From contig JAKAFP010000003.1 of the NCBI GenBank assembly GCA_021825925.1, positions 62,001 through 126,000 on the forward strand: 64,000 bases of DNA, written 5' to 3'. Source of the stretch: Chloroflexota bacterium (GTDB taxonomy: Bacteria > Chloroflexota > Anaerolineae > Anaerolineales > Anaerolineaceae). The translations under genes were made by a program, and so were the position numbers. Shown piece by piece: positions 3,812-62,590 of the stretch. Under the pieces are notes generated by a model. That model was not told the DNA's origin and made no database searches. It saw nothing but the letters and a program-made list of their open reading frames with translations. Every line of letters starts with the position of its first letter. The stretch's first letter is position 1.

Positions 3812-4255
3812 ATGATCCTCGTGAGTATGATCCTTAAAGCCAAAGGGAACCAGGTTGTTAACGTTATGCCAGACGCAACAGTCGCTGAAGCCCTTCAACT
3901 CATGGCCGAAAAAAACATTGGCGCAATAATGGTCATGGATAAAGGTAAGCCAGTGGGAATTTTTTCGGAACGCGACTTTGTCCGTGAAGTATCAAGAGAT
4001 CAATGCATTACATTGAAAATGCCGGTGGAAACCTATATGACCAAGGAGCTTTACTGTGTCACTCCCTCTTCCACCATTGATGAATGCATGGCGTTGATGA
4101 CCAACAAACATATTCGCCACCTGCCTGTGATGGAAGCGGATGAACTGGTCGGACTCATCTCAATCGGTGACATCGTCAAGAACATGATCGAAGATAAAGA
4201 CTTGCTGATTGATAATTTACAAAGCTATATTTTTGGCGCTTCTTACGGAAGATAA
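3812..4255 (+). CDS. Tandem CBS-domain protein
   Basis: 147-aa soluble protein made almost only of two CBS domains (about residues 8-62 and 72-130). Typical CBS signatures are visible: VAEALQLMAEKNIGAIMVMDKGKPVGIFSERDFVR and a second copy with IDECMALMTNKHIRHLPVM and LVGLISIGDIVK. CBS pairs bind adenosyl compounds (AMP, ATP, SAM) and act as energy or redox sensors; stand-alone pairs like this have no assigned partner. The ATG at 3812 has AGGAG a few bases upstream. It is monocistronic, with a 63-bp inverted-repeat element just behind it. Confidence 0.88.
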   Translation: MILVSMILKAKGNQVVNVMPDATVAEALQLMAEKNIGAIMVMDKGKPVGIFSERDFVREVSRDQCITLKMPVETYMTKELYCVTPSSTIDECMALMTNKHIRHLPVMEADELVGLISIGDIVKNMIEDKDLLIDNLQSYIFGASYGR

Positions 4256-4263
4256 AAGTTTCG

Positions 4264-4326
4264 GTTGGGGCACATTGCACCTCTCCCTTAGTTCGGTTGA
4301 GTAAGTACCGTTCAACGTGCCCCAAC
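4264..4326. repeat. 63-bp element with inverted terminal arms, REP-like
   Basis: Perfect 10-bp inverted arms GTTGGGGCAC (4264-4273) and GTGCCCCAAC (4317-4326) enclose 43 bp with weaker internal pairing. The arms are identical to the outer 10 bp of the 28-bp palindrome inside the RAYT gene at 9202-9229, so the two belong to one repeat family. It lies 8 bp after the CBS gene and 19 bp from the end of the convergent gene, and could also work as a hairpin terminator. Confidence 0.7.
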
Positions 4327-4345
4327 ATTACGCCTTTACACAAAC

Positions 4346-6589
4346 CTAATCAATAAACAATCCTTCAAGAATACCTGTCAGGCCAGTCACCTTATAGTTC
4401 TTGCATGTAACCGGATCAAACAGGATGATTTTATTTAATTCTGAATCCATTTGCGCCAGGCTCACTCCAAGCCAGCCGTTTTGCGCCCAAATCAATCCCG
4501 TCGTGCCAACAGAAGGATTATCAAGTAACACATGATTTTCACTACCGTCGAGTTTCACCAAGCGAACGTCGCTATTATTGCGTCCGCGGTAGGCGATCCA
4601 TTCCCCGTCTGGGGATAAAACCGCGTTGAGCGCCTTGTGTGATCCGTCTTCGATCACAAACAAGTCTTCTGATACTCCAGTATTTGGATCAATTGACCGA
4701 ATCTGCCAGGCCGCACCTCCGCTAAACATGGCGGCGGTGATCAGGCGACTGTCATCTGGTATCCAACCTACTGTGGATTCAAACCCCAAAGAAGAAATTT
4801 GATGAACCTCACCAGTATCAACCTCCATGACCAGTAAACCGCTTGCGGTCCCATTTATATAAGCGATAAGCTTGCCATCATTGGACCAAAGCGGATCGTA
4901 TCCCCCCTCGACTGCCTTGAAGATGACCCTTCCAGTGGCAAGATCAAAAATATTGAATCCACTCTCAACCGGGTAAGTAATCTCGGTACCCGCCAGGTTC
5001 ATGGCGCCCCAATTGGCCGAGGCATCCACCACACTCCGGCCGGAACCATCCAAGTTGTAAACCACCAACCCCCAGGTATCTCCATCGGGCATGGGTTCAT
5101 AAATCAGGGCCTTACCTGTCATCTCTGCAGGTAGATCAGGCAGCGTGTGAAGCGTGACCGCAGTACCGCATGTACCAGCCAGCAACGCAGCAGTCGCGGG
5201 CAGTTCCGTGCGTTCCTTCGCTGGGGACCAGGTTCCGCTCCAACTTAATGGATCGCTGATGACCGTGAGTTTCGAGAACACCAGGGTTTGGTTTCCGGTA
5301 GGCAGTTGGGTAAACGACAAGCTCGTACTGAACTTCCCATCAGTCAATCCGCCTCCTCCACCACCCCCACCGCCGTTGGACGTCTGATCTTTGATCTGAA
5401 CACTGAGCCCGTAAACACTTGAATCCACCAATAAATTGAAACTATAACCGCCCTGTGAATCAGCAGAAATGCCTGCTAAATTGACAGTATGGCCGGCCAA
5501 ATTAAATTTAAGATCCGGCGTCCATTCCTGGCCAGGGACGACAGTGCCGCCGAAATCAAATGGAATTTCAACACTCTCTCCGAGGTCTGACTGGCTGATG
5601 GCAACCCCATTAAAAGTGATTGTGATCGGAAAACTCACCCCCACCGTATCAATCTCATAGACCCAGCCTTCAGGGCCAGTTTGAATATTATTCATGGCAT
5701 CAAGGTTCATTTTAAGGGGCACCTTCAACCCTTTTGCATCTATGATTTCGGGCATGCCGGTCTGCTGAATCCATTCCCCATCTTTTGTCTGGGGTTTAAA
5801 CTCGCCCACCAGAATGAATCCGGTCTCGGTTTCGATCACCTGGGTCACGTTCACACTTTCATCTACAGTGACAGCCGTGGATTGCTCTTCATTTACAGGC
5901 ATGGCTGTTGGCGCCACAGTAGGCGAGATTTCGATCACCGGCATCACTGTCATATCAGGCGGCGCAGGGACAAACCTGAGGTTCAACTCCCAGTTTTCAG
6001 GCACGGTTCCCGGCAGGGTATTCGCGATACAGGGGATCACCAGGACAGCCTCATTCACATCTGCGGGAACAGCCGGAAAATCATTCATGCGCTCCAGTCG
6101 AGTGCCGTCAGGCAGCAAGAGATACTCATTCGTGAGGCAGCCCGTCACATTCTCGTCGGTTGGGTTAGCCGACCGAGGCACGCCAAAGACGCGGTATTCA
6201 AGGTGGGTGCGGTCCGAAGAAAGCACGGCGCTGGTAACAGTGATGGTCACGCCGTCGCGGGTTTGTTCCACAGGCTCCGCCAGCACGCGGATGGGTGCAC
6301 CTTCATCCACCAGCCCGACGCCGGGTATGTACCCCAGCAGGCGGCGCATCTCCGCATACACCTTGTCCGGTCCGATGATCAAGGCAGTCAATACAATCGC
6401 GGCAGCCAAAACGATCAGAGCGATCCAGGCTGGGCGTAGCTGCAGCGGGCGCATTCGCGGTGCGGAACTGGCCCTGATTTTGCTGTTCAATTGAAACTCC
6501 AATGAATTGACGAAAGAATCTGACAAAGGCACGGAGGCATACAGCGCGCCGAGTTCTTGTTCCAGTTGGTCATAAATTTGTTCAGTCAT
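4346..6589 (-). CDS. Membrane-anchored protein with C-terminal TolB/WD40-like propeller, putative sigma-factor partner
   Basis: 747 aa. A short cytosolic N-terminus (MTEQIYDQLEQELGALYASVPLSD...) precedes one membrane segment (about residues 52-72), then about 330 extracytoplasmic residues, nine consecutive Gly codons (residues 406-414, DNA 5348-5374) and a C-terminal beta-propeller with TolB/PD40-type blades (DPLWSNDGKLIAYING, VLSPDGEWIAYRG). It overlaps the sigma-factor gene by 8 bp and has GGAGG before the ATG at 6589; a longer frame from 6652 lies wholly inside the sigma gene and is unlikely. By position and topology it is a candidate anti-sigma or signal-sensing protein, but I see no classical zinc anti-sigma motif. 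Confidence 0.72.
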   Translation of the reverse strand: MTEQIYDQLEQELGALYASVPLSDSFVNSLEFQLNSKIRASSAPRMRPLQLRPAWIALIVLAAAIVLTALIIGPDKVYAEMRRLLGYIPGVGLVDEGAPIRVLAEPVEQTRDGVTITVTSAVLSSDRTHLEYRVFGVPRSANPTDENVTGCLTNEYLLLPDGTRLERMNDFPAVPADVNEAVLVIPCIANTLPGTVPENWELNLRFVPAPPDMTVMPVIEISPTVAPTAMPVNEEQSTAVTVDESVNVTQVIETETGFILVGEFKPQTKDGEWIQQTGMPEIIDAKGLKVPLKMNLDAMNNIQTGPEGWVYEIDTVGVSFPITITFNGVAISQSDLGESVEIPFDFGGTVVPGQEWTPDLKFNLAGHTVNLAGISADSQGGYSFNLLVDSSVYGLSVQIKDQTSNGGGGGGGGGLTDGKFSTSLSFTQLPTGNQTLVFSKLTVISDPLSWSGTWSPAKERTELPATAALLAGTCGTAVTLHTLPDLPAEMTGKALIYEPMPDGDTWGLVVYNLDGSGRSVVDASANWGAMNLAGTEITYPVESGFNIFDLATGRVIFKAVEGGYDPLWSNDGKLIAYINGTASGLLVMEVDTGEVHQISSLGFESTVGWIPDDSRLITAAMFSGGAAWQIRSIDPNTGVSEDLFVIEDGSHKALNAVLSPDGEWIAYRGRNNSDVRLVKLDGSENHVLLDNPSVGTTGLIWAQNGWLGVSLAQMDSELNKIILFDPVTCKNYKVTGLTGILEGLFID

Positions 6590-7142
6590 GAGAATCCTCC
6601 AGCCGGCTGTGCAGCCGGTCCAGAAGCCGGTAAAGGCTTTTCTTGAGTGCATCTTCCTTGCGCTCCATCAAGCGCGCGATCTCGCCAAAACTGAGCTGGG
6701 CAGCATAACGCAGGCGCAGCAGCTCCTGCTCACCGTCTTCCAGTTCACACAGGAGTGCCTGCAGTTCGCGCAGACGTTCGCTGCGTATAGCTTGTTGAAG
6801 AAGGTCAGAGTCGAGGGCAGGAAGATCCTCGGGGAGAAATTGCGCACTTCCAGACTGTCTGAAATAGTCCACGGCTTTACGGCGGGCAATGGCAAACAGC
6901 CAGGCGCCAAAGTAGCCTTCGTGACGGTAGCGCGGAAAAGCTTCGAGTGCGCTGAGAAAGGTTTGAGCGGTGGCATCCTCGGCTTCGGCCTGGGAGCCGA
7001 TGCGGCTGTAGAGATAGCGGTAAACCTGTTTGACGTAGCGCAGGTAAAGGGCTTCAAAGGCGCGCACGTCCGTCTGGGCGGCGCGTACCAGATGTTCTTC
7101 TTCCTGCCGATCAACGCTCGGATTGAGTGATTTTTCAGTCAT
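6582..7142 (-). CDS. ECF-type RNA polymerase sigma factor (sigma-70 family)
   Basis: 186 aa, the normal size for an ECF sigma factor. Region 2 (about residues 20-90) shows AFEALYLRYVKQVYRYLYSRIGSQAEAEDATAQTFL and the following FGAWLFAIARRKAVDYFR; region 4 (about 125-180) shows ELLRLRYAAQLSFGEIARLMERKEDALKKSLYRLLDRL. It binds core RNA polymerase and directs it to a small regulon. The ATG at 7142 has AAGGA upstream. Its last codons overlap the start of the membrane-anchored propeller protein, the usual arrangement of a sigma factor with its regulator. Confidence 0.92.
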   Translation of the reverse strand: MTEKSLNPSVDRQEEEHLVRAAQTDVRAFEALYLRYVKQVYRYLYSRIGSQAEAEDATAQTFLSALEAFPRYRHEGYFGAWLFAIARRKAVDYFRQSGSAQFLPEDLPALDSDLLQQAIRSERLRELQALLCELEDGEQELLRLRYAAQLSFGEIARLMERKEDALKKSLYRLLDRLHSRLEDSHD

Positions 7143-7238
7143 GATTCCTTATCCGTTCTTTGCGCAAATTGGTTGTATTTGAGCTCAATAAGGATATCGG
7201 GAAATCAAAGAAAAAGGGACAATAATTCAATCATTTTT

Positions 7239-7259
7239 CCTCTCCCCTGTATGGAGAGG
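7239..7259. repeat. Small hairpin CCTCTCC / GGAGAGG
   Basis: Inverted repeat CCTCTCC (7239-7245) and GGAGAGG (7253-7259) with a 7-nt spacer, in the divergent gap between the sigma factor and homoserine dehydrogenase. It resembles half of the perfect 26-bp palindrome at 62681-62706 and may be a degenerate copy of the same dispersed palindrome. Confidence 0.4.
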
Positions 7260-7352
7260 GGAATAAAACAATTATAAAAGTATACATTTTCTTTGCCTTG
7301 CACATTTTCCTTCTTCAGGGGATAATCCGTGAAACAAAAATTGGAGGGAAGC

Positions 7353-8381
7353 ATGACCAGAGAAGTTCGGCTCGGATTGATCGGTTTTGGCAACGTTGGC
7401 CAGGGGTTTGCCCAGATCCTCAAGGAATCCCGAGAGGAATACATTGAAAAATTCGGCCTGGATCTCAAGATCACAGCCATTTCGGATGCCCGCATCGGCA
7501 GTCTTTACGACCCCAACGGACTGGATGCCGGAGAACTGCTTGAGCATGTCGCCAGCAAGGGATCGCTCAATCACCACCAAGCCGCGAAACCCGGCTGGGA
7601 CGCCCTGACCCTGATCCGCGAATGCAACGCGGATGTGATCGTGGAAATGAGCTACACCGACCTCAAAACCGGTCAGCCCGCCACCGACCATATCATTGAA
7701 GCCCTGACGCAAAAGAAACATGCGGTCACTTCCAACAAGGGACCGGTGGCGCTGCATTATTCCAGGCTGGATGCCCTGGCCGAAGCCAATGGTGTGCAGT
7801 TCGGCGTGGAAGGCACGGTGATGAGCGGCACACCCACCCTGCGCCTGGCGCGTGAAATTTTAGCCGCCGCCAGGATCCGCAAGGTGATGGGCATCTTCAA
7901 CGGTACCACCAACTATATCCTCACTCAGATGGAAAGCGGCATGAGCTACGCCGACGCGCTGGCCGAAGCCCAAAAATTGGGTTACGCTGAAGCGGACCCC
8001 ACCGGCGACGTGGAGGGTTTTGATGCAGCCGGCAAGGTGGTCATTCTGGCAAGGCTGGTGATGAATGAACAGATCAGCATGGAAGACGTGGACCGCACCG
8101 GCATTTCAAAGTTGACACTTGAAGACGTCAACGCAGCCAAGGCAGCCGGCGAACGGTGGAAGCTGATCGGAAGTCTTGAATTCGTGGATGGCAAACTGGT
8201 CACCAGCGTTAAACCACAGCGATTGCCTATCTCACATCCTCTTGCAGGGGTATCGGGTGCCACCAACGCGGCGCACTTCGTGACCGATTATGTGGGCGAA
8301 GTCACGCTGATCGGCCCGGGTGCCGGCAGACTGCCCACCGGATATGCAGTGATCGAAGATATTCTGGCAATTTACAGATAG
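7353..8381 (+). CDS. hom: Homoserine dehydrogenase
   Basis: 342-aa NAD(P)-dependent enzyme that reduces aspartate semialdehyde to homoserine for threonine and methionine synthesis. The N-terminal Rossmann fold shows GLIGFGNVGQGF (residues 8-19); the catalytic domain has SNKGPVA, EGTVMSGTPTLRLAREIL and the family signature GIFNGTTNYILTQM followed by GYAEADPTGDVEGFDAAGK. There is no C-terminal ACT domain, so the short form without ACT-mediated threonine inhibition is predicted. A GTG at 7329 could extend the frame, but the ATG at 7353 follows a strong GGAGGG and is chosen. Monocistronic, closed by a clear terminator. Confidence 0.93.
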   Translation: MTREVRLGLIGFGNVGQGFAQILKESREEYIEKFGLDLKITAISDARIGSLYDPNGLDAGELLEHVASKGSLNHHQAAKPGWDALTLIRECNADVIVEMSYTDLKTGQPATDHIIEALTQKKHAVTSNKGPVALHYSRLDALAEANGVQFGVEGTVMSGTPTLRLAREILAAARIRKVMGIFNGTTNYILTQMESGMSYADALAEAQKLGYAEADPTGDVEGFDAAGKVVILARLVMNEQISMEDVDRTGISKLTLEDVNAAKAAGERWKLIGSLEFVDGKLVTSVKPQRLPISHPLAGVSGATNAAHFVTDYVGEVTLIGPGAGRLPTGYAVIEDILAIYR

Positions 8382-8386
8382 GTTCC

Positions 8387-8417
8387 AAAAGCTCCGGCGC
8401 TTGCCGGAGCTTTTTTG
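8387..8417. terminator. Rho-independent terminator behind hom, probably bidirectional
   Basis: Twelve-bp stem AAAAGCTCCGGC (8387-8398) / GCCGGAGCTTTT (8403-8414) with a GCTT loop and a T tract on the plus strand. The A tract on the other side lets it also serve the convergent DinB gene. Confidence 0.9.
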
Positions 8418-8942
8418 TTATTTCAAATAATTTTCTTTGATGCTGTTCAAGTGATGCAGTTCGTGACCTGGGGTGAGCCAGGCCAAGGCGCGAACGCTGA
8501 CATTGTTGCCCTTGACCAACCCTGAGCGGGTAAGAGCCTGATCATCAAAGCTGTTGAACAGGGTCAGAGTGGCCTGACGAATGGCAGTGTATTCGCCCAT
8601 GATGTCTTCGATCGAACGCAGGTTCACGCCTGAATACTTGACATACAGATCCTGATCAAGCGGGAAGAGTTCAGTGGGGTCATTGCGGGCGAAGCGCATG
8701 GCGCGATAGCTGAACGCTCGTTCTGTATCCATGATGTGGCTGAGGATCTCCTTGACCGTCCATTCACCGGGGGCGCAGGGCACGTCCAGGTTATCGTGGG
8801 GTAGAGAGTTGATTAATTCATAGGCCATGACCTGATTCTTTATCAGATGATTCATTGGGTCGCCATCATCCGGCAGCAGGTCGAGGTACATGATGGCATA
8901 AGGGGCGTATTCGCCAGGTTGGGGTTTGGGGATGGATAACAT
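8418..8942 (-). CDS. DinB-like metal-dependent protein (DinB_2 family)
   Basis: 174 aa, four-helix-bundle family. The three metal-ligand histidines expected of DinB/YfiT-like proteins are visible: one in EWTVKEILSHIMDTERAF (about residue 70) and two in TPGHELHHLNSI near the C-terminus. Members of this superfamily are often thiol-S-transferases or stress proteins using bacillithiol, mycothiol or other thiols; the substrate here cannot be read from the sequence. The ATG has TTGGAG upstream. Convergent with hom, followed upstream by a RAYT transposase gene on the same strand. Confidence 0.82.
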   Translation of the reverse strand: MLSIPKPQPGEYAPYAIMYLDLLPDDGDPMNHLIKNQVMAYELINSLPHDNLDVPCAPGEWTVKEILSHIMDTERAFSYRAMRFARNDPTELFPLDQDLYVKYSGVNLRSIEDIMGEYTAIRQATLTLFNSFDDQALTRSGLVKGNNVSVRALAWLTPGHELHHLNSIKENYLK

Positions 8943-31264: not shown

Positions 31265-31777
31265 ATGATCACCACTTCACGCCTTGAACTACTCTCATTA
31301 TCATTAAGCCAGTTAATGCTGGGTCTTATATCAATTAAGGAGCTATCCTCTTCTCTTTCCATTCCGATCGAGGAGGATTTGTTTGACGGTGCTGCTCATC
31401 GAGCGGTGAACATGAAAATCGAAAAGATGACAACGGCCTCGACAGAAACCCATGAGTGGTTTACCTATTGGCTGATCATTCACAAAGCAACAAATATCGG
31501 TATAGGGTTGGTCGGGTTCAAGGGAGTTCCTGATGCGTCAGGGTCCGTTGAAATCGGTTACGGGTTAAATGAAAAGTATCGCGGGAATGGATACATGAGC
31601 GAGGCAGTTAAAGCACTTGTCCAATGGGCATTCCAACATAAGAGTTGCAAACGCGTAACCGCCACCTCGGTTCTATCCACCAACTTCGCATCACAAAAAG
31701 TGTTGACAAACGCCGGCTTCACTTTGGATTTTGCCAATAAAGAAAACCATAATTACTCAATAATTAAAAAGTTGTAA
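31265..31777 (+). CDS. GNAT-family N-acetyltransferase (RimJ/RimL type)
   Basis: 170 aa. Opens with TTSRLELLSLSLSQL as in Acetyltransf_3 members; the acetyl-CoA-binding motif A is IGYGLNEKYRGNGYMSEAVKALVQWAF (about residues 96-122), and the end has ATSVLSTNFASQKVLTNAGFTLD. It transfers an acetyl group from acetyl-CoA to an amino group, protein N-terminus or small molecule; the substrate is not predictable. AAAGGT precedes the ATG. It is isolated between the minus-strand envelope block and the long leader of the MgtE-like gene. Confidence 0.87.
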   Translation: MITTSRLELLSLSLSQLMLGLISIKELSSSLSIPIEEDLFDGAAHRAVNMKIEKMTTASTETHEWFTYWLIIHKATNIGIGLVGFKGVPDASGSVEIGYGLNEKYRGNGYMSEAVKALVQWAFQHKSCKRVTATSVLSTNFASQKVLTNAGFTLDFANKENHNYSIIKKL

Positions 31778-31792
31778 TATGACAGTTACGTC

Positions 31793-31821
31793 TTGACTTA
31801 GTCGAGCTTAAAAACTAAAAT
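31793..31821 (+). promoter_or_regulatory. Promoter of the MgtE-like/NRAMP-like operon leader
   Basis: TTGACT (31793-31798), exactly 17 bp, TAAAAT (31816-31821). Transcription would start near 31828, giving a leader of about 350 nt before the MgtE-like start codon. Confidence 0.7.
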
Positions 31822-31827
31822 AACAGA

Positions 31828-32133
31828 GTAGTAAATTTAATTTGCTGAAAATCATCTCAGAAGAAAGGTCCAAAATGCAGTTGGAAGAGACGGGTACCTC
31901 AAAAGACGTGCCTCCCCTAAGTAGTCGGGAAGCTTTTGAGTTATCCACCGTTGTTGCAAACAGAGTCGCAAAACTGAATAGAACAAAAAACAACTGCATC
32001 AGTACCCGCGGTGTTTTTCAACTTCGAATCCAGTCAAACGGCTCTCATAAAGTACCAGATTGATCAGATCCCTCTGATCTAAAACGGCATTCGCACAATG
32101 CCGGCTGGTACTTGGTTGACCAGCCGGTTTTTT
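31828..32133 (+). promoter_or_regulatory. Structured leader RNA, riboswitch-like, class not recognised
   Basis: About 300 nt between promoter and start codon, ending in an intrinsic terminator. Upstream part: ATGCAGTTG (31875-31883) pairs with CAACTGCAT (31991-31999); CGGGTAC (31891-31897) pairs with GTACCCG (32002-32008) in pseudoknot order; CTCAAAAG (31898-31905) pairs with CTTTTGAG (31933-31940). Downstream part: a three-way junction with P1 AAGTACCAG (32050-32058) / CTGGTACTT (32105-32113), hairpin GATCAGA/TCTGATC (32062-32079) and hairpin CGGCATT/AATGCCG (32085-32103). P1 and the second hairpin share bases with the 5' arm of the terminator, so they exclude each other. No M-box or yybP-ykoY core was found. 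Inferred role: metal-dependent control of the transport genes behind it. Confidence 0.65.
32101..32133 (+). terminator. Intrinsic terminator in the leader, 42 bp before the MgtE-like gene
   Basis: Nine-bp stem CCGGCTGGT (32101-32109) / ACCAGCCGG (32119-32127), 9-nt loop, six T. Its 5' arm overlaps P1 (CTGGT) and the AATGCCG hairpin arm, giving a switchable terminator. Confidence 0.85.
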
Positions 32134-32175
32134 GTTAATCGGCTCCTAAATTTAATCAATAGATAGGAGGCTACG

Positions 32176-33444
32176 ATGCCATTCATCAGTCAATTAATTG
32201 GAAGGGTTGTAGTAGATTCCGAGGGTAAAAACCTTGGACATCTTGATGAGGTGTTGGCAGTTCAAAATCCTCAATTTCCACATCCACAGTTGAACAGCTT
32301 ATCGGTCATTAATAAGACTGAAAGAACAATTTATCCTTTCAGTGAGGTGACCGTACTCTTTGCCTCTGAAATTTCATTGGCTCACCCCCAGAACATTTTA
32401 AAAACGCATGTTTTGAGCGGAAACGAAATAAAACTGATTGATGATGTTTTGGATAAACAGATCATTGATACCAACGGCATCCGTGTGGTGCGAGTAAATG
32501 ATCTTGAGATCACCAAAGTAAATGGCAATTATTATGTCTCCAATGTGGATATTGGTTCCACCGGTATCTTGCGCCGGGTTGGGCTGGCCAAACTCGCCGA
32601 ATGGATCAATAAGATTTTTTCACGTGACGCCACCAAGAATAAAATTTCATGGGACTTTGTAGAACTTCTGGTGCATGATCAATTCATGCGCCTGAAAGTG
32701 CCTGGCGAAAAGATTCGCGATCTGCACCCTGCAGACCTGGCTGAATTGCTCAGCGACATGAACCATAAGGAAGGTCGCAAGCTGCTCGATTCCATGGATA
32801 TTGAGCACTTGGCAGATGCACTGGAAGAAGTGGAACCTGAATTCCAGGCCACCCTGGTGCAAGAAATGTCAGATGAGAGAGTCGCTGACGTACTCGAAGA
32901 AATGTCTCCTGATGAAGCTGCTGACTTGCTGGCGGAACTGCCTGCCGAGCGCAGTGAAGACCTTTTGGAATTGATGGAGGACGAAGAGGCCAAAGATGTA
33001 AGAATGCTGCTTTCGTATCCTGAGGATACCGCTGGCGGTATCATGACCACCGACTTTGCCTCCATCCGCCCCGGTTTGACTGCGGCCAAGGCGATCGAAG
33101 CCATCCGTTCACAGGAACCGGATGCGGAATCCATTTTCTATGTATACGTCACGGATGAAGCAGACCACTTGTTGGGTGTATTTTCATTGAGTGACCTGGT
33201 ATTGGCAAAACCCGGTACGCTCGTTTCCAGATTTATGCATCAAAAGGTTGTGTCGGCGGATGTTCTGACCAAACAGGAGATCCTGGCCCAACTCATCGCC
33301 AAATACAACCTTCTGACCATCCCGATCGTGGATCATGAAAACCGTCTGGTAGGAATGGTGACCGCGGATGACGCACTGGATAAGATTATTCCCACTGCGT
33401 GGAAAAAGAAACTGCCGCGCTTCTATTATTACAACCGCGCATAA
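32176..33444 (+). CDS. MgtE-like cytosolic sensor protein (PRC-barrel, MgtE-N and CBS pair) lacking the membrane domain
   Basis: 422 aa, no membrane segment. Residues 1-140 form two PRC-barrel-like units (LIGRVVVDSEGKNLGHLDEV; DDVLDKQIIDTNGIRVVRVNDLEI), about 170-285 the MgtE N superhelix (LHPADLAELLSDMNHKEGRKLL, LEEMSPDEAADLLAELP, EEAKDVRMLLSYPEDTAGGIMT) and about 290-410 two CBS domains. In the Mg2+ channel MgtE these parts close the pore when Mg2+ is bound; the pore itself is missing here and an NRAMP-like transporter gene follows after 15 bp. The protein should therefore act in trans as a Mg2+ sensor or gate. AGGAGG precedes the ATG. Transcribed from the long switchable leader. Confidence 0.9.
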   Translation: MPFISQLIGRVVVDSEGKNLGHLDEVLAVQNPQFPHPQLNSLSVINKTERTIYPFSEVTVLFASEISLAHPQNILKTHVLSGNEIKLIDDVLDKQIIDTNGIRVVRVNDLEITKVNGNYYVSNVDIGSTGILRRVGLAKLAEWINKIFSRDATKNKISWDFVELLVHDQFMRLKVPGEKIRDLHPADLAELLSDMNHKEGRKLLDSMDIEHLADALEEVEPEFQATLVQEMSDERVADVLEEMSPDEAADLLAELPAERSEDLLELMEDEEAKDVRMLLSYPEDTAGGIMTTDFASIRPGLTAAKAIEAIRSQEPDAESIFYVYVTDEADHLLGVFSLSDLVLAKPGTLVSRFMHQKVVSADVLTKQEILAQLIAKYNLLTIPIVDHENRLVGMVTADDALDKIIPTAWKKKLPRFYYYNRA

Positions 33445-33459
33445 CAGGAGGAATAAGCG

Positions 33460-34758
33460 ATGATGAAACGTTCCCTCCGCATTACAATAAAAAGGTGGGC
33501 CGGCCTGCCCATGATCCGGCCGCTCATCTTGTTCTTTGGTGTTTTTGGTCCCGCCACCATTACAGCCATGGCTGATAATGACGCAGGCGGTGTGGCTACT
33601 TATTCTGTTGCCGGCGCCACCTTGGGCTACCCGGTGTTGTTCATTTTGCTAATCATCACCTTTTTATTGGCTGTGACACAAGAGATGGGCATGCGCCTGA
33701 CCCTGGTCACGCGCCGCGGATTGGCCGACTTGATCCGCGAAAGGTTTGGTGTCAAAATCTCACTCCTTATCTTCCTGGCCTTGTTGGTCGCCAATCTTGG
33801 CACGATCACCACGGAACTGGCCGCCGTGAAGGTGACCAGTGGCATGCTGCATTTACCCGCCATCCCGTTTGTGTTCTTGATCGTGTTGGTCTCGGTCGTG
33901 GTGGTCACCAAAGGAAACTATAAACTGACTCAGGGAATCATGCTGATCACCAGTCTCTTTTATTTGGCTTACATTATTTCCGCAGTGAAAGCCAAACCCG
34001 ATTGGGGTCTGGCAGTTTCCAATATTTTTTGGCCGCATGGGGTGGATTTCAACCCCACCTACATGCGTAATTATTTACTAATCGGCATGGGCGTATTGGG
34101 TACCACCATTACCCCTTGGGGACAGTTCTTTATCAGCAGCTTTGCCTATGACAAGAATATCGAAGCGAAGAACATCGTTTATTCTCAACTTGAAACCTAT
34201 GTGGGCGCATTCCTGACCGATTTCTTCTCTTTCTTCATGGTGGTCGCTACTGCCGCCACCCTGTTTGTCAATAAGATCCCACTCACCTCGGGTGAAACAG
34301 CCGCATTAGCCATCAAACCTTTTGCAGGAGAGCTGGCTGGCTCTTTGTTTGCCTTTGGTATTTTGAACGCAGGATTCATGGGTTTGATCGTGGTCTCCCT
34401 TTCGACGGCTTATGCATACGCCGAATTCTTTGGGTTGCAGGGCAGCCTGGATTCCAATTACAAACAAAGCAAATCCTTCTATCTGATCTTTATTGCCCAA
34501 TTGGTCGTGGCAACCATAATTGTCATGTTCCCGAATGTATCCTTCTTCAAGTTGGCAATCACCACGCAGACCATCAATGCCATCGCCCTGCCGCTGGTGT
34601 TTTATTACCTGATAAAGCTCGCCAGTGACAAAGGACTTATGGGAAAATATGCCAACAATGGATTCCAAAAATGGTTTACGATCATCGGCTCAATTGCCAT
34701 TTTCATTGCCTCCGTATTAACGCTTGGCGCCACGTTCTTCCCAACTTTGGGATTGTAA
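33460..34758 (+). CDS. NRAMP-family transporter, probably of the Mg2+-transporting (NRMT-like) branch
   Basis: 432 aa with about 11 membrane segments. TM1 has ITAMADNDAGGVATYSVAG in place of the canonical DPGN metal motif, and the TM6 motif that reads MPHN in Mn/Fe transporters is ITPWGQFF, so the selectivity Met is absent. From my knowledge of the family this pattern belongs to NRAMP-related Mg2+ transporters. The preceding gene encodes a pore-less MgtE sensor, which supports Mg2+ as substrate and suggests a split regulated transporter. AGGAGG before the ATG (a second ATG follows immediately). Mn2+ or another divalent ion remains possible. Confidence 0.82.
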   Translation: MMKRSLRITIKRWAGLPMIRPLILFFGVFGPATITAMADNDAGGVATYSVAGATLGYPVLFILLIITFLLAVTQEMGMRLTLVTRRGLADLIRERFGVKISLLIFLALLVANLGTITTELAAVKVTSGMLHLPAIPFVFLIVLVSVVVVTKGNYKLTQGIMLITSLFYLAYIISAVKAKPDWGLAVSNIFWPHGVDFNPTYMRNYLLIGMGVLGTTITPWGQFFISSFAYDKNIEAKNIVYSQLETYVGAFLTDFFSFFMVVATAATLFVNKIPLTSGETAALAIKPFAGELAGSLFAFGILNAGFMGLIVVSLSTAYAYAEFFGLQGSLDSNYKQSKSFYLIFIAQLVVATIIVMFPNVSFFKLAITTQTINAIALPLVFYYLIKLASDKGLMGKYANNGFQKWFTIIGSIAIFIASVLTLGATFFPTLGL

Positions 34759-34875: not shown

Positions 34876-34912
34876 ATCAGAACGAGTGGACCGGTGCCCC
34901 ACTCGTTCTGAT
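34876..34912. repeat. Inverted repeat at the head of the tandem array
   Basis: ATCAGAACGAGTGG (34876-34889) and its complement CCACTCGTTCTGAT (34899-34912), 9-bp spacer. The right arm is the junction of the 100-bp tandem repeat that follows, so the left arm is an inverted copy of the unit's start. It may act as a hairpin at the end of the transporter operon. Confidence 0.75.
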
Positions 34913-35241
34913 TTAATTTACGCTAGACTCGAAGTCTCCTCCTGCCCCTCTCGCTGCGCACGGGGGTGCAAAAACCGCAGGGTGCTAAAACCGCGACCCC
35001 ACTCGTTCTGATTTAATTTACGCTAGACTCGAAGTCTCCTCCTGCCCCTCTCGCTGCGCTCGGGGGTGCAAAAACCGCAGGGTGCTAAAACCGCGACCCC
35101 ACTCGTTCTGATTTAATTTACACTGGACTCGAAGTCTCCTCCTGCCCCTCTCGCTGCGCTCGGGGGTGAAAAACCCGCAGGGTGCTAAAACCGCTACCCC
35201 ACTCGTTCTGATCTAATTTATCTTTGGTGCGTCTCCTCCTT
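34901..35241. repeat. 100-bp tandem repeat, three full units and a decayed fourth
   Basis: Units begin with ACTCGTTCTG at 34901, 35001, 35101 and 35201, a period of exactly 100 bp. Units 1 and 2 differ at a single base, unit 3 by about seven; unit 4 is recognisable for about 20 bp and then again at GTCTCCTCCT. Each unit has a small hairpin AGACT-CGA-AGTCT and a CCCC/GGGG pair. It fills most of the 610-bp gap behind the NRAMP-like gene and has no coding potential. Near-identity of units 1 and 2 indicates recent duplication. Confidence 0.95.
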
Positions 35242-61303: not shown

Positions 61304-62590
61304 ATGGCAAACCAGATTAATGCATTTGAAATGGCACAAAGGCAATTTGATCATGTTGCCGAATTACTAAACCTTGATCCACAAGTATCAGAAATATTGC
61401 GCTGGCCGCTGCGTGAGTTTTCTTTCCGCATTCCGGTGCGCATGGATGACGGCAGTGTGCGCGTCTTCCAGGGATTCCGTGTGCAGCACAACGACGCCCG
61501 CGGCCCCAACAAGGGCGGCATTCGCTTCCATCCTGCCGAGACCATTGACACCGTGCGCGCCCTGGCCACCTGGATGACCTGGAAATGCGCCGTGGCAGAC
61601 ATCCCGTTGGGCGGCGGCAAGGGCGGCATCATTCTTGACCCGGCCACCCTCTCCAACAGTGAAAAAGAGCGCCTGGTACGCGGTTGGGTGCAGGTCATGT
61701 GGCGGAACATCGGTCCACGCCAGGACGTCCCCGCCCCGGATGTAGGCACCACCCCGCAAATGATGGCCTGGATGATGGATGAATACTCCAAACTGGTCGG
61801 CGCTTACACGCCCGGCACCATCACCGGCAAACCCCTCGGTGGCGGCGGTTCCCTCGGACGCACCGAAGCCACAGGTTTCGGCGTGATCTACACCGTGCGC
61901 GAAGCCATGAAGCACCTCAAGATGGAACCCTCCAAATGCACGGCTGCCATCCAGGGTTTTGGCAACGTTTCACAATATGCTGCCATCGGATTCAACGAGA
62001 TCCTCAAAGGCAAAGTGATCTGTGTCTCATTCTATGATCGTGAAGATAAGGTCTCTTACACCGTCAGCAAAGCGGACGGTATTGATCCTCACTTCTTGAT
62101 GACCATCACCGACCAATACGGCTCCATTGACAAAGCCAAGGCCAAAGCGGCTGGCTACGCCATCGAAGACGGCGGCGAATGGATCAAGAAAGACGTGGAT
62201 GTTCTCATCCCCGCCGCATTGGAAGGCCAGATCAACAGTGAGACGGTCGGATTGATCGGTCCGCGCGTCAAGATCGTGGCTGAAGGCGCCAACGGCCCCA
62301 CCACCCCCGAAGCAGATGAAGTGCTCAAGAACCGCAACATCTTCGTTATCCCCGATTTCTTGTGCAATGCCGGCGGTGTGACCGTATCTTACTTCGAGGG
62401 CGTTCAGAACGACATGAACTACTACTGGACCCGCGAAGAAGTGCTCGAAAAACTCGACACCAAGATGACCATCGCCTTCCAGGGCGTGCTGGATATGAGC
62501 CTGAACCGCAAGGTCTTCATGCGCGATGCTGCCTACATGGTGGCCATTGACCGTGTGGTCAAAGCCATGCAATTACGAGGCTGGGTTTAG
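61304..62590 (+). CDS. gdhA: Glu/Leu/Phe/Val dehydrogenase, glutamate dehydrogenase type
   Basis: 428 aa, normal for hexameric GDH. N-terminal domain: RVQHNDARGPNKGGIRFHP (substrate Lys), then MTWKCAVADIPLGGGKGGIILDP with the catalytic Lys (about residue 105), DVPAPDVGTTPQMMAWMMDEYS; dinucleotide fold AAIQGFGNVSQYAAIGFNE and PAALEGQINSETV, EGANGPTTPEADEVL, and NAGGVTVSYFEGVQN. It interconverts glutamate and 2-oxoglutarate with ammonia. AAGGAG before the ATG. The following post-stop motif and terminator close the transcript. Confidence 0.95.
   Translation: MANQINAFEMAQRQFDHVAELLNLDPQVSEILRWPLREFSFRIPVRMDDGSVRVFQGFRVQHNDARGPNKGGIRFHPAETIDTVRALATWMTWKCAVADIPLGGGKGGIILDPATLSNSEKERLVRGWVQVMWRNIGPRQDVPAPDVGTTPQMMAWMMDEYSKLVGAYTPGTITGKPLGGGGSLGRTEATGFGVIYTVREAMKHLKMEPSKCTAAIQGFGNVSQYAAIGFNEILKGKVICVSFYDREDKVSYTVSKADGIDPHFLMTITDQYGSIDKAKAKAAGYAIEDGGEWIKKDVDVLIPAALEGQINSETVGLIGPRVKIVAEGANGPTTPEADEVLKNRNIFVIPDFLCNAGGVTVSYFEGVQNDMNYYWTREEVLEKLDTKMTIAFQGVLDMSLNRKVFMRDAAYMVAIDRVVKAMQLRGWV

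Follow-up and report, generated by a model that had tools for sequence, protein, structure and literature searches.

A candidate leader-peptide attenuator in front of an MgtE_N/CBS-NRMT operon in a Chloroflexota genome

Background

Within the NrmT group of NRAMP-related transporters, most members adjoin a gene for a protein resembling the N-domain of MgtE and many of the genes lie behind a magnesium riboswitch, as stated in the part of Shin et al. 2014 that was available (PMC4072509); the same part speculates on cytoplasmic feedback by the MgtE fragment and reports that co-expressing one such fragment brought no further gain in Mg2+ rescue. The binding site of these transporters, also called NRMTs, has been described by the signature DxxG in helix 1 and TxxA/T in helix 6 (PMC8806188). 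Here, we describe a locus of this kind in a stretch of 64,000 nucleotides from a Chloroflexota bacterium of the family Anaerolineaceae (GCA_021825925.1, contig JAKAFP010000003.1, forward-strand positions 62,001 to 126,000), hereafter the window, in which a soluble MgtE-like protein and an NRMT-type transporter are encoded behind a leader that carries an upstream open reading frame (uORF).

In the leader-peptide attenuators of amino-acid and antibiotic operons, alternative hairpins are set by the position of the ribosome, as is proposed below for the leader in the window. The founding paper on ribosome destabilisation is reportedly that of Chadani in 2017. According to the accessible parts of two studies in enterobacteria, the ribosome dissociates on the EPDP motif of Escherichia coli MgtL when Mg2+ is scarce (PMC11282234) and Salmonella MgtQ depends on Asp2 and Glu5 (PMC8092293). 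Sensing of Mg2+ through a nascent chain is confined to enterobacteria in the open-access literature that we searched.

At the locus reported here the protein pair is already published and the leader is the new part. We consider it somewhat more probable than its opposite that, through this leader, ribosomes control the MgtE_N/CBS-NRMT operon by attenuation, with low Mg2+ as the most likely trigger.

The leader and its open reading frame

An earlier, sequence-only reading of the window had described a promoter with 17-bp spacing followed by a switchable, unclassified leader of roughly 350 nt. The promoter is present, with a -35-like TTGACT at 31793-31798, a gap of 17 bp and TAAAAT at 31816-31821, and a promoter with a 16-17 bp spacer is kept in 14/14 homologous leaders (all sequences used in this work come from assemblies, many of them metagenomic). 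Counted from a putative transcription start near 31829, the leader measures about 347 nt. No Rfam family reached the gathering score in it, a permissive scan returning only a chance miRNA-like match (E 2.3), and the covariance model of the M-box riboswitch (RF00380) matched neither the leader nor the window's genome assembly, which is 84% complete. The description as unclassified and switchable holds; the switch, as distinct from a recognisable RNA aptamer, appears to be translation of the uORF. The features of the leader are as follows.

31793..31821, + strand: sigma-70-type promoter TTGACT-17-TAAAAT, 10/12 consensus matches
31862..31868, + strand: Shine-Dalgarno-like AGAAAGG of the uORF; GAAAGG lies 3-9 nt before the ATG in 14/14 leaders
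31875..32063, + strand: leader uORF, 62 residues and stop, MQLEETGTSKDVPPLSSREAFELS...HKVPD*; codon-level conservation, MarR-like N-terminus
31875..31922, + strand: conserved acidic/Pro block in uORF codons 1-16; E4, D11, V12, P13, P14 and L15 invariant (n=14)
32050..32058, + strand: predicted antiterminator 5' arm AAGTACCAG, within the last uORF codons; pairs with 32105-32113
32105..32113, + strand: CTGGTACTT, predicted 3' arm of the antiterminator, on the terminator's 5' side; reverse complement of AAGTACCAG
32062..32079, + strand: hairpin GATCAGA...TCTGATC over the uORF stop, inside the antiterminator (predicted fold)
32085..32103, + strand: hairpin CGGCATT...AATGCCG inside the antiterminator, overlapping the 5' arm of the terminator (predicted fold)
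32100..32132, + strand: intrinsic terminator, stem-loop 32100-32128 and T run; 10-pair stem, 94.9% of cells paired in 8 sequences

The coding score of uORF codons 1-23 was reached by none of 5000 column permutations, with the two other frames scoring below zero, and when the test was repeated with 11 sequences it was reached by none of 2000. Residues D11 to L15 are each encoded by two or three synonymous codons across the 14 leaders, residue 5 is acidic in 13 of them, and past about codon 24 the residues vary freely, the uORF being 37 to 63 residues long. By this pattern of substitution the uORF is coding, and we infer that it is translated. Its invariant E4, D11, P13 and P14 make up an early acidic and proline-containing nascent-chain motif like that of MgtL, and the net-acid test gave p=0.005 for the window.

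A long leader before a metal transporter whose orthologues have M-boxes might also be taken for an uncatalogued metal-binding riboswitch in which the uORF is incidental. This is very improbable in our view: Rfam offers no match, the conservation is at the level of codons with synonymous changes, and the sequence between the N-terminus and the antiterminator is variable, as is the length of the uORF.

Terminator and antiterminator

The 5' arm of the putative antiterminator lies in the last codons of the uORF and its 3' arm within the terminator, and on sequence and predicted energies the two structures are mutually exclusive and placed by the leader reading frame. For 32045-32134 the predicted energy is -31.8 kcal/mol with the antiterminator and -29.0 kcal/mol with the terminator, and when the uORF stop region is covered the predicted fold contains the terminator only. 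Hence, these energies and the fold with the arm covered predict that full translation would turn the operon off and failed translation would turn it on.

An antiterminator at the uORF stop was found at p<0.05 in 8/8 NRMT leaders of the genus, and it was significant in all 11 leaders of a second test, five of which precede the ABC (ATP-binding cassette) gene considered further below; together the two tests cover 13 of the 14 genus leaders, L210 being in neither. When eight leaders were aligned, 86% of the cells of the 9-pair helix were paired, against at most 61% when the helix was slid by up to 3 columns. A strict terminator finder called a terminator in 11 of the 14 genus leaders and none in 3. 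The distance from uORF stop to terminator is 34-36 nt in 10 of these 11; in L034 the finder called a longer stem, and the distance is 30 nt. The terminator at 32100-32132 is not listed by a generic terminator scan restricted to loops of 3-8.

The real coding signal would also fit a uORF whose product is a functional small protein, with the terminator incidental. We give little credence to this explanation; the kept part comprises only about the first 16 residues, the remainder is free in sequence and length, and the 3' end of the uORF is held by base-pairing and by its spacing to the terminator.

The protein pair

The operon behind the leader consists of two genes.

32176..33444, + strand: soluble PRC/MgtE_N/CBS protein, homologue of the MgtE cytosolic domain, 422 aa (Pfam domains, model)
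33460..34758, + strand: NRAMP-related transporter with NRMT signature, 432 aa (Pfam, nearest solved structure, motif)

The first product had been read as a PRC/MgtE-N/CBS protein without a membrane segment, and Pfam and a structure model bear this out. MgtE_N (E 1e-27) and CBS (9.4e-16) were matched, PRC fell narrowly below its cut-off (20.3 vs 21.2 bits), and the MgtE transmembrane pore domain had no Pfam match; the model (mean predicted local distance difference test score 83) has no long membrane-type helix. It best matches cytosolic structures of MgtE (2yvy, TM-score 0.86 over the target; Z 26.7, 239 residues, root-mean-square deviation 2.1), and Pfam and model comparison together indicate an MgtE_N plus CBS-pair fold.

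The second product, beginning 15 bp 3' of the first gene, is NRAMP-like as had been said (Nramp, E 1.7e-68). Its best solved relative is EleNRMT (7qia) with 222 bits, against 72 for the next chain and about 45 for the best MntH chains, so that by bit score it is closer to NRMT than to the Mn/Fe NRAMPs. The motifs DNDAGG in transmembrane helix 1 and TTITPWG in helix 6 read as reported, the columns in place of DPGN being DAGG (D41-G44), and in the alignment D41-G44 and T215-T218 fit the NRMT signature DxxG/TxxA-or-T, the same pattern being present in 12/12 aligned sequences. Comparison at this level supports an NRMT-type transporter; the word "channel" used in the earlier reading is not suitable, since NRMTs are described as transporters. 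By transporter identity the nearest relative among the best 80 of 588 named loci is Chloroflexi bacterium HGW-Chloroflexi-4 (93%), with other genomes at up to 95%.

The pairing of the two genes is conserved, as had been expected of a sensor and its transporter: an MgtE_N-type match was found at 138 of 156 loci (a set that was not de-duplicated, L033 and L048 being one locus), in 137 cases on the transporter's strand and in one, L058, on the opposite strand. Several of the 18 loci with no such match begin close to a contig end. Among more distant NRAMPs, none of 13 loci (L016-L022, L025-L030) had an MgtE_N match within 1.5 kb. The NRAMP motif reading picked a wrong frame or motif at some of these loci, and only the MgtE_N column and locus L028 were used; the latter is a separate classical NRAMP with DPGN/MPH in the window's own genome, with no MgtE fragment within 1.5 kb. 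The sequence-only interpretation is upheld in part, as to an NRMT-type transporter in a conserved pair, though the pair and the feedback idea had both been published in 2014; regulation of the transporter in trans by the MgtE-like protein, also suggested in that reading, is a hypothesis.

It might be argued that the pair moves Mn2+ or another divalent metal and that the operon is not about Mg2+. The NrmT of A. capsulatum, which stands beside an MgtE fragment, behaved as an Mn2+ transporter, rescuing an Mn2+ transport defect fully, whereas its rescue of a mutant in Mg2+ transport was limited to growth at low millimolar Mg2+, according to the accessible part of PMC4072509. Set against this are the NRMT signature DxxG/TxxT (motif from PMC8806188), the Mg2+ transporter EleNRMT as closest solved relative and the separate classical NRAMP of the genome, and we regard the Mn2+ explanation as improbable.

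Some further observations concern the family and the flanks of the locus. Tandem NRMT copies stand behind a single MgtE-like gene in L034 (genome G002, 5069-8776) and L037 (genome G015, 4203-6820), and frame breaks in G002 split both the MgtE-like gene and the first of the NRMT copies (pseudogene or assembly error). The NRMTs of Patescibacteria (Roizmanbacteria, Gottesmanbacteria and Woesebacteria; L053, L055, L057, L059-L062) are 48-67% identical to that of the window, and the adjoining MgtE-like proteins, where found, only about 30% identical; exchange of NRMTs between Anaerolineales and bacteria of the candidate phyla radiation is possible, judging from these identities. A GNAT acetyltransferase gene lies immediately 5' of the leader (window 31265-31777) and a tandem repeat of 3.2 copies x 100 bp (96% matches, window 34897-35220) just 3' of the transporter gene.

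Distribution and origin of the leader

The leader with its uORF occurs in 14 of 16 genomes of the genus. In eight of them the NRMT operon follows it, in the other six an ABC ATPase gene; genomes G007 and G009 have neither gene. In none of the 16 do the NRMT and the ABC gene occur together, as if they were replacements of each other behind one leader. The best NCBIfam match of this orphan ABC ATPase is DrrA (daunorubicin resistance), far below cut-off. Orphan ABC ATPases behind the leader were observed at L210-L214 and L216, in genomes lacking an NRMT operon, and that of L210 carries the Walker A sequence GNDHAGKST, which we take to be unusual.

Orthologues of the ABC gene were found in seven other genera, each with an upstream ORF; a terminator was called between the two in five of the seven and an antiterminator was significant in three. 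The upstream ORF is a full regulator-like protein in six of these genera and already short in L239. Two of the regulators were scanned, and MarR_2 scored above cut-off in one (L237, E 2.9e-7) and just below it in the other (L233, E 5.6e-6). Against a profile built from six regulator N-termini, 13/13 uORFs outscored each of 200 shuffled versions of themselves; E ran from 2.8e-8 to 4.4e-3 in this small set. On this comparison the N-terminus of the uORF is homologous to that of the MarR-like regulator, and because of this homology the window uORF looks like a gutted regulator gene, one without its DNA-binding core in which the first ~16 codons and the antiterminator-forming 3' end were kept.

The same attenuator, inherited from an ABC-transporter operon and only later placed before the NRMT operon, might instead respond to general ribosome trouble such as ribosome-targeting antibiotics or a limitation of elongation factor P or proline. 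Such a signal would suit a leader held in common with an orphan ABC ATPase gene whose best, sub-threshold match is DrrA, and an ORF, terminator and antiterminator that partly extend to the ABC loci of other genera. We think it unlikely, though by no means negligible, since the acidic residues next to the PP pair are kept across the genus and since orthologous NRMT operons, as well as M-boxes, are repeatedly accompanied by other acidic uORFs, which precede the former and follow the latter.

Acidic uORFs elsewhere and the link to Mg2+

From the 138 matched loci 137 leaders were kept (L091 had no start codon). The net-acid test took 65 of 67 leaders from the window's class and 53 of 60 others. 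In the class the uORF was more acidic than 95% of shuffles in 21/65 leaders on the sense strand vs 2/65 on the antisense strand, at least L170 and L177 among the 21 looking like tails of upstream genes. In phyla beyond Chloroflexota the counts were 6/53 and 2/53, and because this difference is weak the signal there rests on the Shine-Dalgarno-led MDSGP and MDTDP peptides of Desulfosporosinus and Pelosinus, whose uORFs end 9-77 nt before the next gene, mostly with no terminator called between. A residue-blind rule requiring a Shine-Dalgarno match of at least 6 bases was applied to 129 of the 137 leaders, those under 200 nt being left out, and found a uORF in 25, of which 23 were distinct. Asp or Glu stood at residue 2 in 17 of these 23, compared with 7/113 long and 15/280 short control ORFs, a difference inflated by relatedness.

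Some of these uORFs stand behind M-boxes. An orthologous operon with the same gene order, L043, has an M-box (130.6 bits), and 11 of 13 named loci, chosen mostly for an already visible uORF, have one or two. In 10 of the 11 an acidic uORF lies between M-box and operon, with Asp at residue 2 in nine and the start MNADGS in L056. Two Pelosinus loci (L076, 2995-3484; L095, 3000-3478) show two consecutive M-boxes, then an MDSGP uORF and then the same operon. Twenty further M-box loci were chosen away from NRMT hits, L190 nonetheless starting with an MgtE_N/CBS gene, and an MD-x-D uORF was seen with an ATG or GTG start in L197, L198 and L209 and with TTG in L202; this count is not blind, because with a Shine-Dalgarno match as short as 4-5 bases a uORF entered the list only when it was acidic, as in L197 and L202. 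Those of L197 and L209 precede genes for Mg2+-type P-ATPases (best match TIGR01524; fragments below the full-length cut-off), that of L198 a MacB/FtsX-type permease, and a weaker uORF behind the M-box of L207 a full MgtE. No such leader was seen, on inspection by eye, at the two CorA genes of the window's genome.

Common descent of all acidic uORFs from the same regulator found no support, as only 2 of 27 (L128 and L132) beat all 200 shuffles; for L134, L144, L160 and L168, between 3 and 6 of the 200 shuffles equalled or exceeded the regulator-homology score.

As a tentative proposal, which we hold to be rather less probable than not, Chloroflexota and Firmicutes may have in their acidic proline-containing leader peptides a second Mg2+ sensor, one that works through the ribosome and that some lineages stack behind an M-box before NRMT or MgtA genes; in the window's genus it may have been remade from the MarR-type gene, gutted until a ribosome-destabilising N-terminus and the antiterminator end were left, and may now control an NRMT operon that has no M-box.

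Proposed mechanism

Under the proposed attenuation, a ribosome that finishes the uORF would sit at the stop codon and cover the arm at 32050-32058, the terminator at 32100-32132 would form and the operon would be off. With early drop-off or a stall on E4-E5...D11-V-P-P-L15 the arm would stay free, the antiterminator would form ahead of the complete terminator and RNA polymerase would enter the transporter genes. The trigger is most likely low cytoplasmic Mg2+, which would weaken ribosomes on acidic and proline-containing nascent chains as in MgtL. Import of Mg2+ by the operon would follow, possibly damped by the MgtE-like protein once Mg2+ is restored.

Several observations weigh against this reading, in addition to the Mn2+ behaviour of the A. 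capsulatum protein. Two antiterminator pairs are changed on both sides, no more than shuffles give (230/500), and therefore the case for the antiterminator rests on pairing that is kept despite changing arms. In a wider set of 32 leaders, hand-picked for having both uORF and terminator and including the eight from the genus, significance for an antiterminator at the stop was confined to 15. A free search over the whole uORF was less clear, with p<0.05 in 12 of the 32, the window not among them (free optimum elsewhere, p=0.255); for L128, L129, L131 and L132 it placed the best arm in the interior of the uORF. Only two of five genus leaders reached p<0.05 in the net-acid test. The full-length regulators of the six other genera already have an acidic, Ser/Pro-rich N-terminus. 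Four M-box NRMT leaders were read in the less selected class sample, and only that of G379 shows an acidic uORF after the M-box; in G037, G354 and G362 no such uORF lies between M-box and operon. Most acidic uORFs elsewhere have no demonstrable homology to that of the window, for which reason the link to Mg2+ is by analogy. Finally, in six of the 16 genus genomes the gene behind the same leader is an ABC ATPase with no visible connection to Mg2+.

We nonetheless regard the attenuator architecture as highly probable. Control by Mg2+ is plausible, and by analogy with MgtL we put Mg2+ as the signal of the leader at about even, because six members of the genus have the same leader before the ABC ATPase.

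Comparison with known systems

This leader is a form of leader-peptide attenuation that is unreported in the open-access literature searched, and its origin can be traced. The step from a full regulator gene to a leader peptide would offer a rare look at the way in which these peptides come about. If further leader peptides beside M-boxes do act in this manner, ribosome stability would have been used repeatedly as a Mg2+ gauge in bacteria, and conserved uORFs behind M-boxes would gain a candidate function.

The described NrmT/NRMT systems with an MgtE-N-like ORF have the same two genes and the NRMT signature, and feedback was already proposed for them, as far as the available parts of PMC4072509 and PMC8806188 go. 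The locus in the window differs in that it has no M-box, stands behind a uORF attenuator and encodes an MgtE-like protein with an N-terminal PRC-like part. The M-box (ykoK, RF00380), which is absent from the window, controls orthologous operons of the same order, also in Firmicutes, and in some relatives it sits upstream of a separate acidic uORF. A conserved uORF downstream of an M-box is likewise known in Mycobacterium tuberculosis (uORF2/Rv1805A), where its function was left open by the authors in the part of their paper that was available (PMC12810186).

Compared with the attenuators of amino-acid and antibiotic operons, the window uORF has no run of codons for one amino acid; its core is EE...DVPPL. 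The enterobacterial MgtL and MgtQ resemble it as short leader ORFs with early acidic and proline residues before a Mg2+-type transporter, and as in those systems failed translation is predicted to favour expression. The likeness is one of features, with no homology claimed, and most of the acidic residues in the window uORF stand apart from the PP pair. The read-out differs as well, since MgtL acts through Rho and MgtQ through masking of the ribosome-binding site, whereas in the window it would be an intrinsic terminator with an antiterminator at the uORF stop.

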